DNA from: Pseudolabrys sp.
Lineage (GTDB): Bacteria > Pseudomonadota > Alphaproteobacteria > Rhizobiales > Xanthobacteraceae
DNA length: 36,604 nucleotides
Assembly: GCA_022843325.1 (NCBI GenBank)
Contig: JALHNV010000034.1
Coordinates: forward strand, 1-36,604
Direction: 5' to 3'
Numbering within the stretch: position 1 is the first letter of the stretch; the number at the start of each line of letters is the position of its first letter. This document shows positions 1,861 to 15,203 of the stretch, piece after piece. Both the position numbers and the translations under genes were made by a program. A model generated the notes under the pieces. That model was not told the origin of the DNA, made no database searches, and saw nothing but the letters and a program-made list of their open reading frames with translations.

Positions 1861-1931
1861 CGTCATGGCCGGGCAACCGGGTCCGGCCATAGGCCGGCCC
1901 GGCCGTGACACTTGTCCCGGCCATCCACGAC
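1861..1931. repeat. Family B palindromic repeat with an internal insert
   Basis: The two halves of the element that flanks the GIY-YIG gene are present here: GTCATGGCCGGG (1862-1873) and CTTGTCCCGGCCATCC (1911-1926) followed by ACGAC. They are split by about 37 extra bases, themselves rich in GGCC palindromes. This is the only notable structure in the 216-base gap 1763-1978. Confidence 0.7.
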
Positions 1932-2250: not shown

Positions 2251-2294
2251 AACTCGTCATGGCCGGGCTTGTCCCGGCCATCCACGACTTGCTT
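2251..2294 (+). repeat. Left inverted repeat of GIY-YIG unit (family B)
   Basis: This 44-base copy matches the reverse complement of 2596-2640 except for one base change and one single-base gap. Inside it is a perfect palindrome, ATGGCCGGG-N5-CCCGGCCAT (2259-2281). It ends 3 bases from the nuclease stop codon. Confidence 0.9.
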
Positions 2295-2297
2295 CAC

Positions 2298-2585
2298 TCA
2301 AATGAGATGGTCGTACAAATCCTCCCACGCCGGATTCATGGCGTGGATGAGCCGCACCTTCCACGCGCGCGGCCAGTGCTTGATGGTGCTCTCGCGCTGA
2401 ATGGCATCGCGGATATCGTCGAACTGTTCATAATAGACAAGTGACTTGAGACCGTAGCGCTGCGTGAAACCTTTCACCTGCCCCTCGCGATGCTGGAACG
2501 CACGCTGTGGCAAATTGCTGGTGACGCCGGCATAGAGAATGCCGTCGCGCTTGTTGGTCATGAAATAGACCCAGCCACCGGACAT
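2298..2585 (-). CDS. Single-domain GIY-YIG nuclease family protein
   Basis: The 95-residue protein is a stand-alone GIY-YIG domain. Its signature strands are WVYFMTNKRDGILYAGVTS (residues 4-22), corresponding to the GIY and YIG motifs (here VYF and YAG). Then come the helix HREGQ (His, Glu), the YGLKSLVYYE strand, and the ESTIKHW segment with the conserved metal-binding Glu. It resembles the many short GIY-YIG proteins of Bradyrhizobium relatives. The ATG at 2585 starts right at the domain. The gene is bracketed by inverted repeats 2251-2294 and 2596-2640, leaving 3 and 10 bases outside the frame. I infer a mobile or repeat-associated role; biochemical activity is not shown. Confidence 0.85.
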   Translation of the reverse strand: MSGGWVYFMTNKRDGILYAGVTSNLPQRAFQHREGQVKGFTQRYGLKSLVYYEQFDDIRDAIQRESTIKHWPRAWKVRLIHAMNPAWEDLYDHLI

Positions 2586-2595
2586 CGCTGCATTT

Positions 2596-2640
2596 AAGCA
2601 AGACGTGGATGGCCGGGACAAGCCCGGCCATGACGGAGTT
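2596..2640 (-). repeat. Right inverted repeat of GIY-YIG unit (family B)
   Basis: This 45-base copy is the inverted partner of 2251-2294 and contains the same ATGGCCGGG-N5-CCCGGCCAT palindrome. Its outer end (2640) directly abuts the stop codon of the propionyl-CoA synthetase gene (2641-2643). Confidence 0.9.
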
Positions 2641-4557
2641 TTACGCCCCCACACCCTTCCCCTTCAACGCGACCCCGATCTCATCCAAAATAGCCGGGTC
2701 ATCGATCGTCGCCGGCATCTGCCACGCCTCGCCGTCGGCCATCTTCTTGATGGTGCCGCGCAGGATCTTGCCCGAGCGCGTCTTGGGCAGCCGCGCCACC
2801 GTGATCGCCAGCTTGAACGCCGCGACCGGCCCGATCTTGTCGCGCACCAGCGCCACGATCTCCTTCTCGATCTCGAGCGGCGCCTTGGTGACGCCCGACT
2901 TGAGCACGATGAAGCCGCACGGCACCTCGCCCTTCAGCTCGTCCTTGATGCCGAGCACGGCGCATTCGGCCACATCGGGATGGCCGGCCAGCACCTCCTC
3001 CATGCCGCCGGTCGAGAGCCGGTGGCCGGCGACGTTGATGATGTCGTCGGTGCGGCTCATCACATAGACATAGCCGTCGGCATCCTTGTAGCCGGCGTCG
3101 GCCGTCTTGTAGTAGCCGGGGAATTCCGCGAGGTAGGCCTCGCGGAAGCGCTCGTCATTGTGCCACAGCGTCGGGAACGCGCCCGGCGGCATCGGCAGCT
3201 TGATGACGATGGAGCCGATGGTGTTCTCCGGCTGCACGTGATTGGCCTCGTCGACGATGTCGATGGCATAGCCCGGCATCGGCACGCAGGCCGAGCCGTA
3301 GCGCACCGGCAGCTTGCCGAGGCCGAGCGGATTGCCGGCGATGCACCAGCCGGTTTCGGTCTGCCACCAGTGATCGATCACCGGCACCTTCAGCACATCC
3401 TCGGCCCATTGCAGCGTCGGCGGATCGGCGCGCTCGCCGGCCAGGAACAACGCGCGGAAATGCGACAGGTCGTGCTGCGACAACAGTCTGGCGTCCGGGT
3501 CCTCCTTGCGGATGGCGCGGAACGCGGTCGGCGCGGTGAACAGCGACACGACGCTGTGCTGCGCGCAGACCCGCCAGAACGCGCCGGCGTCCGGCGTGCC
3601 GACCGGCTTGCCCTCGTACATCACCGAGGTCGCGCCATGCAGCAGCGGCGCATAGACGATGTAGGAATGGCCGACCACCCATCCGATGTCGGAGGCGCAC
3701 CACCACACTTCGCCGGGATCGATGTTGTAGAGGTTCTTCATCGACCATTTCAGCGCGACCATGTGGCCGCCATTGTCCCGCACCACGCCCTTGGGAATGC
3801 CGGTGGTGCCCGAGGTGTAGAGAATGTACAGCGGATCGGTGGCGGCGACCGGCACGCATTCCGAGGTCTTGGCGTAGTTGACCGCGTCCTCCCACACCGC
3901 GCGCCAGTCGTGGTCGCGGCCCGGCGTCAGCGCCGCTTCGCATTGCGGGCGCTGCAGGATCAGGCAGGTATCGGGCTTGTGCGCGGCGAGATCGATCGCA
4001 GCGTCAAGCAGCGGCTTGTAGGGGATGACGCGCGCGCCCTCGATGCCGCAGCTCGCCGACAGGATCACCTTCGGTTTGGCATCGTCGATGCGCGTCGCCA
4101 GTTCCTTGGCGGCAAAGCCACCGAACACCACCGAGTGGATGGCGCCGATGCGGGCGCAGGCCAGCATGGCGAACACCGCCTCTGGCACCATCGGCATATA
4201 GAGGATGACGACGTCGCCCTTCTTGACGCCGAAGTCGCGCAACATGGCGCCGAGGATCTGCACCTCCGACAGCATGCGGCCGTAGGTGAAGGTCTTGACC
4301 GTATTGGTAACGGGCGAATCGTAGATCAGCGCCGGCTGCTGGCCGCGGCCGGCGGCGACGTGGCGGTCGAGCGCGTTGTAGCAGGTGTTGCAGGTCGCGC
4401 CCGTGAACCAGCGGCCGTAAATGCCGGCCTCGGAGTCGAAGATCTTCGTCGGCTTGTCGTACCAGTCGATGGCCGCCGCGGCCTCGGCCCAGAACGCCTC
4501 CGGGTTGCGCTGCCAGTGCGCGTAGACATCGTGGTAGCGGCTCGCCAGGGCATCCAT
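2641..4557 (-). CDS. prpE: Propionyl-CoA synthetase (propionate--CoA ligase)
   Basis: The 638-residue enzyme belongs to the acetyl/propionyl-CoA synthetase branch of the ANL superfamily. It activates a short acid to an acyl-adenylate, then to acyl-CoA, in the cytosol. Visible motifs are the AMP-binding P-loop YTSGTTGIPKG (about 247-257), WWQTETGW (about 397-404), YKTADAG with the following SRTDD hinge, and the C-terminal LPKTRSGKILRG with the catalytic Lys that is usually acetylation-controlled. Length and the N-terminus (RYHDVYAHWQ...IDWYDKP) fit PrpE better than acetyl-CoA synthetase. GGGAGG (4567-4572) lies 9 bases before the ATG at 4557 and touches another in-frame ATG at 4566, so I prefer 4557. 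No prpBCD partners are in the window. Confidence 0.9.
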   Translation of the reverse strand: MDALASRYHDVYAHWQRNPEAFWAEAAAAIDWYDKPTKIFDSEAGIYGRWFTGATCNTCYNALDRHVAAGRGQQPALIYDSPVTNTVKTFTYGRMLSEVQILGAMLRDFGVKKGDVVILYMPMVPEAVFAMLACARIGAIHSVVFGGFAAKELATRIDDAKPKVILSASCGIEGARVIPYKPLLDAAIDLAAHKPDTCLILQRPQCEAALTPGRDHDWRAVWEDAVNYAKTSECVPVAATDPLYILYTSGTTGIPKGVVRDNGGHMVALKWSMKNLYNIDPGEVWWCASDIGWVVGHSYIVYAPLLHGATSVMYEGKPVGTPDAGAFWRVCAQHSVVSLFTAPTAFRAIRKEDPDARLLSQHDLSHFRALFLAGERADPPTLQWAEDVLKVPVIDHWWQTETGWCIAGNPLGLGKLPVRYGSACVPMPGYAIDIVDEANHVQPENTIGSIVIKLPMPPGAFPTLWHNDERFREAYLAEFPGYYKTADAGYKDADGYVYVMSRTDDIINVAGHRLSTGGMEEVLAGHPDVAECAVLGIKDELKGEVPCGFIVLKSGVTKAPLEIEKEIVALVRDKIGPVAAFKLAITVARLPKTRSGKILRGTIKKMADGEAWQMPATIDDPAILDEIGVALKGKGVGA

Positions 4558-4582
4558 CGATTTCATCCTCCCAACTTTTCTC

Positions 4583-15115: not shown

Positions 15116-15203
15116 CTCCGCTCATTCCCGCGAAAGCGGGAATCCAGAGCCGCCTGTCGTGGCGCAAAGATCTGGATCCCCGCTTCCGCGGGGATGAGCG
15201 GAG
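15116..15203. repeat. Palindromic intergenic repeat, family D, between purE and purK
   Basis: Outer arms CTCCGCTCAT (15116-15125) and ATGAGCGGAG (15194-15203) are exact inverses. Further inside are TCCCGCG-AAA-GCGGGAATCCAG and a matching CTGGATCCCCGC...GCGGGG. The right arm contains an in-frame ATG of purK at 15194. Confidence 0.85.

Follow-up and report, generated by a model that had tools for sequence, protein, structure and literature searches.

Ssn is a site-specific, single-strand GIY-YIG nuclease of Neisseria with a repeated target named NTS. In a study said to have appeared in Nature Communications in 2025, this enzyme reportedly cuts a repeated single-stranded site and affects transformation, and thousands of homologues are said to have sites of their own. 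Ssn would be the closest known system to the one described below. On the side of the repeats, the available text of Di Nocera et al. 2013 (PMC3733652) describes the CGTC-3 REP as a CGTC tag, a 9-bp stem beginning with AT, a 5-nt loop and a CCA tail, occurring as heterodimers. In the same portion of text, CGTC REPs apparently have no dedicated transposase, REPs prefer sites downstream of genes, and the string GIY is absent. A literature search for GIY-YIG nucleases joined to CGTC REPs, dRS3 or REPINs gave none among the matches listed, within the text available for them.

The DNA analysed here, referred to as the window, is a stretch of 36,604 nucleotides from Pseudolabrys sp. Close to its beginning, a nuclease gene is enclosed by inverted hairpins (Table 1), an observation that is confirmed. 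The initial annotation had described two inverted arms, separated by 3 bases from the stop codon of the gene on the left and by 10 bases from its start on the right, the right arm touching the prpE stop codon (2641-2643); all of this can be read directly from the sequence. In the repeat search the arms form one inverted pair that extends outward to 2240 and 2650 (55 nt, 87% complementary). Both arms contain, without any mismatch, the 32-nt core CGTC-ATGGCCGGG-CTTGT-CCCGGCCAT-CCACG: the CGTC head, a 9-bp stem (ATGGCCGGG/CCCGGCCAT), the 5-nt loop CTTGT and the tail CCACG. With the class number taken from the text of PMC3733652 that is available, the arms appear to fit the CGTC-3 definition. Since the REP proper stops at its CGTC heads (2255 and 2635), each arm may have 4-5 bases at its outer end that are not part of the element. 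Folded as single-stranded DNA, the arms have z-scores of -5.8 and -5.0, and none of 200 shuffles is equally stable. Allowing at most 3 mismatches, the core is matched 59 times in the own genome, and its reversed control 0 times.

Table 1. Positions of the unit, its parts and its neighbour in the window
Feature	Position	Strand	Basis
Whole unit: REP, GIY-YIG gene, inverted REP (REPIN-like dimer with the gene as spacer)	2251-2640		Sequence, repeat search, flank score, comparison with dispersed pairs
Left REP, head CGTC outward and tail CCACG towards the gene, inside arm 2251-2294	2255-2286	+	Sequence, pattern search, folding; appears to fit CGTC-3 (PMC3733652, available text)
GIY-YIG nuclease gene, 95 aa, stop codon included	2298-2585	-	ORF, PF01541, predicted fold
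Right REP, inverted copy, head outward and tail towards the gene, inside arm 2596-2640	2604-2635	-	Sequence, pattern search, folding
prpE, neighbour serving to locate orthologous sites	2641-4566	-	Name from the initial annotation, kept as a label

The gene is intergenic, between prpE and the next gene, with no intron and no split target gene. No direct repeats were seen by eye at the outer ends of sites that have a gene-less or empty counterpart, where divergence of the flanks prevents placing the junction to the base. Two other origins were considered and rejected: an RNA element, a search of positions 1700-2800 at the Rfam gathering thresholds giving 0 matches, and a phage origin, no match being found at E <= 1e-8 among 50,697 phage records. 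To note, the window harbors two further hairpin elements. An extra class A REP at 1861-1929 (plus strand) is interrupted by 37 inserted bases (1874-1910) at the precise junction of its first stem arm with the loop, and an inverted hairpin pair of another class comprises GCTCATTCCCGCGAAAGCGGGAATCCAG (15120, plus) and GCTCATCCCCGCGGAAGCGGGGATCCAG (15174-15199, minus).

The 95-residue product matches the PF01541 profile at 52 bits (cut-off 22.6), and the inverted-repeat score of its flanks is 40.5, compared with a 99th percentile of 14.96 among 305 control places of the same geometry; the initial annotation of a GIY-YIG gene between inverted repeats is thus well founded. The AlphaFold2 model has a mean pLDDT of 95.9. 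Foldseek retrieves UPF0213 (1zg2, E 6e-4), followed by Slx1 and UvrC at weaker E-values, and phmmer returns 1zg2 at 3e-4. In an alignment of 78 sequences (A4), from which three loci with stop codons (L194, L243, L252) were left out, R28, H32, E65 and K69 are invariant and Y7, Y18, G20 and N84 are conserved at 90% or more; these we take to be the GIY-YIG catalytic positions. The protein has no further DNA-binding domain. We infer that the nuclease would recognise this class of hairpin, bind it and cut it.

The own genome (3.88 Mb) contains seven PF01541 matches. L007 resembles UvrC and L004 lacks a flanking repeat, while the other five are accompanied by hairpins: class A hairpins surround the window gene (L006) and L003, class B hairpins (tail CCCGC) surround L002 and class C hairpins (ATTGCCGGG, CTTGA, CCATG) L005, and L001 lies near hairpins with a CCAGTA tail. 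In this one genome, four hairpin classes thus occur side by side, every one of them with a gene clade of its own. A profile built from the five genes finds relatives in 35 of 43 genus genomes, at 0-9 per genome and several with stop codons; 10 weak, partial or broken matches were left out. Enclosure was scored across each gene irrespective of hairpin class, with the 99th percentile of control places as threshold and without the duplicate loci L008, L048 and L087, which are also outside the class-pattern set and the tree. The score exceeds the threshold at 79 of 95 genus loci (305 control places), the enclosed fraction following the profile score: 41/44 at 130 or more, 36/45 at 100-130 and 2/6 below 100. 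A second set, from named genomes, comprises 80 loci, 79 of them with enough flank (L178, with a short flank, was left out), and at least 4 of the 79 (L175, L229, L240, L247) are genus loci already among the 95; here 65 of 79 exceed the threshold (181 control places). No significant enclosing repeat is found at the remaining 16 genus and 14 named-genome loci. Inverted repeats are therefore far commoner at these GIY-YIG genes than at control places, contrary to the finding by which the initial annotation would have given up its proposal.

Flanking inverted repeats are also seen farther away, in the plasmid-collection records, where 16 of the 33 with matches were read and scored without control places. 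Eleven of the 16 reach a score of at least 23, including records of Sinorhizobium meliloti, Shinella, Rhizobium, Azospirillum, Novosphingobium, Sphingobium, Aeromonas and Neisseria gonorrhoeae; three (a Sinorhizobium, Planktothrix and Spirosoma) score 16.5-18, and two (Rhizobium tumorigenes and Photobacterium) have no inverted repeat. In N. gonorrhoeae, Azospirillum and some other records of this collection, the hairpins closest to the gene form clusters instead of a plain tail-inward pair. The N. gonorrhoeae (L158, 2.17 Mb) and Aeromonas caviae (L167, 4.94 Mb) records are filed as plasmids and look like chromosomes. In Azospirillum lipoferum 4B plasmid AZO_p3 (L164), the GIY-YIG gene and its hairpins lie between sufB and sufC, and in Planktothrix agardhii plasmid p1 (L166) the homologue sits between annotated MmeI and DISARM drmA genes, among GTCATTCTGAG repeats.

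The hairpin class at a gene follows the protein tree. Nine hairpin classes were written as patterns after the flanks had been seen and before the tree was built. The tree, with 91 proteins, 93 alignment columns and 18 forks left open, omits L004 and L095-L097, L004 being also outside the class-pattern set. Hairpin classes require 16 changes on it, compared with a mean of 62.4 after shuffling (0 of 200 shuffles as low), and classes A, B and F each occupy one clade (bootstrap 98-99). As the flanks are linked to the gene, this fit taken alone could reflect joint inheritance. Outside the genus, where clade A was assigned by score alone (E <= 1e-46), a class A hairpin lies upstream in 24 of 28 clade-A loci of other genera (one with the tail CTACG) and a CCA-tail hairpin downstream in 20 of the 28. 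Among the 29 clade-A loci L254-L282, the upstream hairpin is present in 25 and ends 22 nt before the match start in 18 of these. This near-fixed spacing, unlike that of the downstream hairpin, hints at a possible role in expression at L254-L282.

Repeats that are not linked to the gene provide a further line of evidence. Among 43 genus genomes, the number of unlinked repeats of each class was compared with the presence of each gene clade: the matched pairs are significant (A/A p = 0.031, B/B 7e-4, C/C 6e-4), and significance also extends to unmatched combinations such as C repeats with B genes (p = 6.5e-5), so the genus set does not separate the classes. The test was therefore rerun at family level with an off-class control, on 198 genomes at least 90% complete, subtracting the two flanking copies and accepting a clade-A gene at E <= 1e-46. 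Unlinked A repeats have a median of 34 in the 42 genomes with a clade-A gene versus 8 in the 156 without (p = 3.9e-8), and, compared within genera, they are more numerous with the gene in 15 of the 16 genera that are informative (p = 2e-4 by permutation). B repeats, which share the stem and loop and differ in the tail, show no excess with a clade-A gene in the 198 family genomes (p = 0.91; within genus 0.64), a control of limited power because B repeats occur in only 55 of them. Exceptions exist on both sides: 28 genomes without a detected clade-A gene have at least 30 A repeats, and five with the gene have fewer than 5. Enrichment of enclosure, class-by-class pairing and the class-specific copy-number association together make a link between nuclease and repeats very probable.

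The dispersed copies are themselves organised. Forty stretches of the own genome, covering 47 of the 59 core matches and excluding the two gene units, contain 82 REP copies, 35 of them distinct. Neighbouring REPs are tail to tail in 39 of 40 pairs, with spacers of 17-31 nt in 33 pairs, 52-55 nt in six and 82 nt in one. Equal stems occur in none of these 40 pairs, compared with 16 of the 26 pairs that flank genes in the genus (p = 6e-9). At positions 4, 5 and 9 of the stem, G-C and C-G replace each other with pairing kept; over all nine pairs, 309 of 315 cells are paired. Two dimers folded as single-stranded DNA give z ~ -9, one as a long imperfect hairpin and the other as a pair of hairpins sharing a stem. 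Unequal stems would prevent a short dimer from folding into a single long perfect hairpin, while the gene spacing would allow equal stems. Since the dispersed copies are REPIN-like inverted heterodimers, the unit can be described as such a dimer with the nuclease gene as its spacer. This is also why the comparison with REP-associated transposases made in the initial annotation is apt. A search with PF01797 (Y1 REP-associated transposase) gives 0 matches in the own genome and passes the cut-off in 4 of 43 genus genomes. A RAYT as the mover was rejected on the lack of a PF01797 match in the own genome.

The initial annotation had also proposed to compare prpE loci for empty sites. In this comparison the outcome that would have refuted its proposal, the gene at this locus in all relatives, did not occur: a GIY-YIG match lies within 1 kb of prpE in 5 of 39 genus genomes, the 3' side being off the contig in 4 of the 39. 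Thirty of the 39 prpE loci and 30 of 42 murB loci were read. At prpE, the full unit is present in four (the own genome G000, G024, G040 and G007, the last with a second, shortened copy), and in the close relative G031 the 3' part of the gene alone remains, adjoining a REP and an unrelated insertion. Three loci have a hairpin without the gene: one REP in G010; 3' of prpE in G014 (L121), a tail-less palindrome with CGTC-type heads at its two ends; and in G032 (L104), one REP and one double-headed, tail-less palindrome around unrelated sequence. A double-headed palindrome is the expected remnant of a deletion between the two palindromic stems of the unit and may be its scar. The other 22 loci have no such hairpin in the 700 nt 3' of prpE (fewer where the contig ends). 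Between murC and murB, 19 of the 30 loci could be placed, the gap not being locatable by script in 11. The unit is found in G000 and G042, and in G031 the position is occupied by a degenerate REP without the gene. Eight genomes (G007, G008, G010, G012, G022, G025, G027, G040) have murC and murB overlapping or no more than ~10 nt apart, with no insert, and the other eight loci carry other sequence in the gap. In G042 (L134) the murC-murB unit lies between direct repeats of ~45-50 nt, each running into a REP, a possible trace of duplication.

Dispersed repeats vary in the same manner. At eight orthologous places compared between G000 and G031, two have the same element, five a hairpin element of another class in G031, and one is empty; one of the five G031 elements is a class G unit with a GIY-YIG gene (L364), facing a class A dimer (L301) in the own genome. 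Sites of repeat and gene thus turn over. The gene copies at prpE form one clade on the protein tree, and the murB copies of G000 and G042 fall in a group that also includes one from G019; identity between the own genome's two class A genes is 63%. As site-mates are clade-mates, the gene at a given site is old and often lost, and jumping is old or rare. No recent jump was seen at the prpE and murB sites or on the tree, and frequent or recent jumping was rejected, copies at one site sharing descent.

The reading that we favor, with a probability of roughly 0.6 for the whole explanation including its mechanism, is that the unit is a nuclease-bearing REPIN: two inverted CGTC-3 REPs, tails inward, enclosing a small GIY-YIG gene. 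Its support comes from the architecture, the conserved active-site residues, the class pairing, the class-specific copy number, and presence and absence at orthologous sites; we infer binding, cutting, a single-stranded substrate and spread by repair. The short dimers elsewhere (two REPs, mostly 17-31 nt apart) would be copies lacking the gene, which the nuclease would serve in trans in the way that a RAYT serves REPINs. When a region turns single-stranded, at a fork, during repair or upon DNA uptake, the REP would fold, and the nuclease would read the hairpin through its class-specific loop and tail and nick beside it. GIY-YIG nucleases are not known to rejoin ends, and repair is for this reason assigned to the host, which would mend the break from another copy by gene conversion or template switching. 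Such repair would keep the copies alike and occasionally plant or remove one, and the distribution at sites would result from an old insertion and repeated loss rather than from frequent jumping. By analogy with Ssn, the nuclease probably cuts its own hairpins, whereas the further step, in which cutting drives spread through repair, is put forward tentatively. The GIY-YIG enzyme is the best candidate here for an agent that would maintain or spread the repeats. What the initial annotation had suggested, a nuclease acting as the agent of repeat spread, is partly supported: the link between enzyme and repeat is backed by enclosure, class pairing and copy number, and cutting of the hairpins and movement of the unit are predictions.

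Three other explanations deserve to be weighed. The nuclease might serve its host: an Ssn-like enzyme would cut exposed or incoming single strands that bear the repeat, tuning uptake or recombination, and the repeats would persist as useful sites or terminators. The role reported for Ssn in Neisseria transformation is in line with such a function, as are the age of the gene copies at a site and the five of eight orthologous places at which the close relative G031 holds a hairpin element of another class, as if a hairpin were needed. A gene that is patchily present (0-9 per genus genome, several copies with stop codons) and that leaves gene-less sites and remnants fits this function poorly, which makes it unlikely overall.

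Alternatively, the gene could be passive cargo, trapped by chance in REP dimers moved or amplified by another enzyme, in the way that REP elements surround unrelated sequence at prpE in G032. Chance trapping does not account for the class-by-class pairing on the tree or for a number of unlinked copies that depends on the gene, and the search for a Y1/RAYT enzyme finds nothing in the own genome, with only 4 of the 43 genomes of the genus above the cut-off; we regard this explanation as quite improbable. Smallest of all is the chance of mere crowding, in which REPs gather in intergenic gaps and the gene happens to sit in one. The preference of REPs for positions downstream of genes, given in the available text of PMC3733652, would lead to some such encounters, yet flanking pairs agree in class and orientation, and control places of the same geometry, which were not limited to short intergenic genes, rarely score this high. 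The nuclease-bearing REPIN is thus retained as the preferred reading. Its extension to a general rule is a bolder proposal, to which we give slightly less than even odds: small stand-alone GIY-YIG nucleases would be the dedicated enzymes that the CGTC REP superfamily has seemed to lack and would define a second, nuclease-driven kind of REPIN, unrelated to RAYT and reaching well beyond the alphaproteobacteria, each clade reading its own loop and tail and spreading it by break and repair without a transposase.

As to known systems, Ssn and the window system have in common a small stand-alone GIY-YIG protein and a repeated genomic partner sequence. The gonococcal homologue, presumably Ssn itself, is 46.7% identical to the window protein (E 4e-20) and is encoded among GTCATTCCCGC..GCGGGAAT hairpins. 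From their sequence, these hairpins are of the CGTC-1/dRS3 kind, following the accessible text of PMC3733652. The window system differs by its REP class (CGTC-3), by a tight two-REP unit around the gene and by REPIN-like dispersed dimers, and cleavage is here a prediction. Should targets from alphaproteobacteria already be listed in the work on Ssn, the pairing would be known, and novelty would lie in the unit, in the REPIN-like dimers and in the copy-number effect. With the CGTC-3 REPs, as the available text of PMC3733652 presents them, the window REPs share the CGTC tag, the 9-bp stem beginning with AT, the 5-nt loop, the CCA tail and the heterodimers; whereas that text has no dedicated transposase for them, those of the window enclose a GIY-YIG gene. 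The pairing names a candidate enzyme for CGTC REPs and predicts class by class which protein acts on which hairpin, so that the open question of 2013 becomes a simple in vitro test. It also points to small enzymes that form a natural series, in which one target may be set apart from the next by a few tail bases. RAYT/REPIN systems, the subject of PMC3116915 and PMC2817692, likewise have an enzyme gene flanked by REPs and dispersed inverted REP pairs whose number tracks the enzyme gene; the window system has a GIY-YIG nuclease in place of the Y1 transposase, a CGTC instead of a GTAG tag, and no PF01797 match in its own genome. The likeness to homing endonucleases drawn in the initial annotation is looser: both share the catalytic GIY-YIG fold and the notion that repair of a break brings about spread, while the window gene, 95 aa long and devoid of an added domain, has no intron or interrupted gene and is enclosed by its own repeats at the end of a gene.
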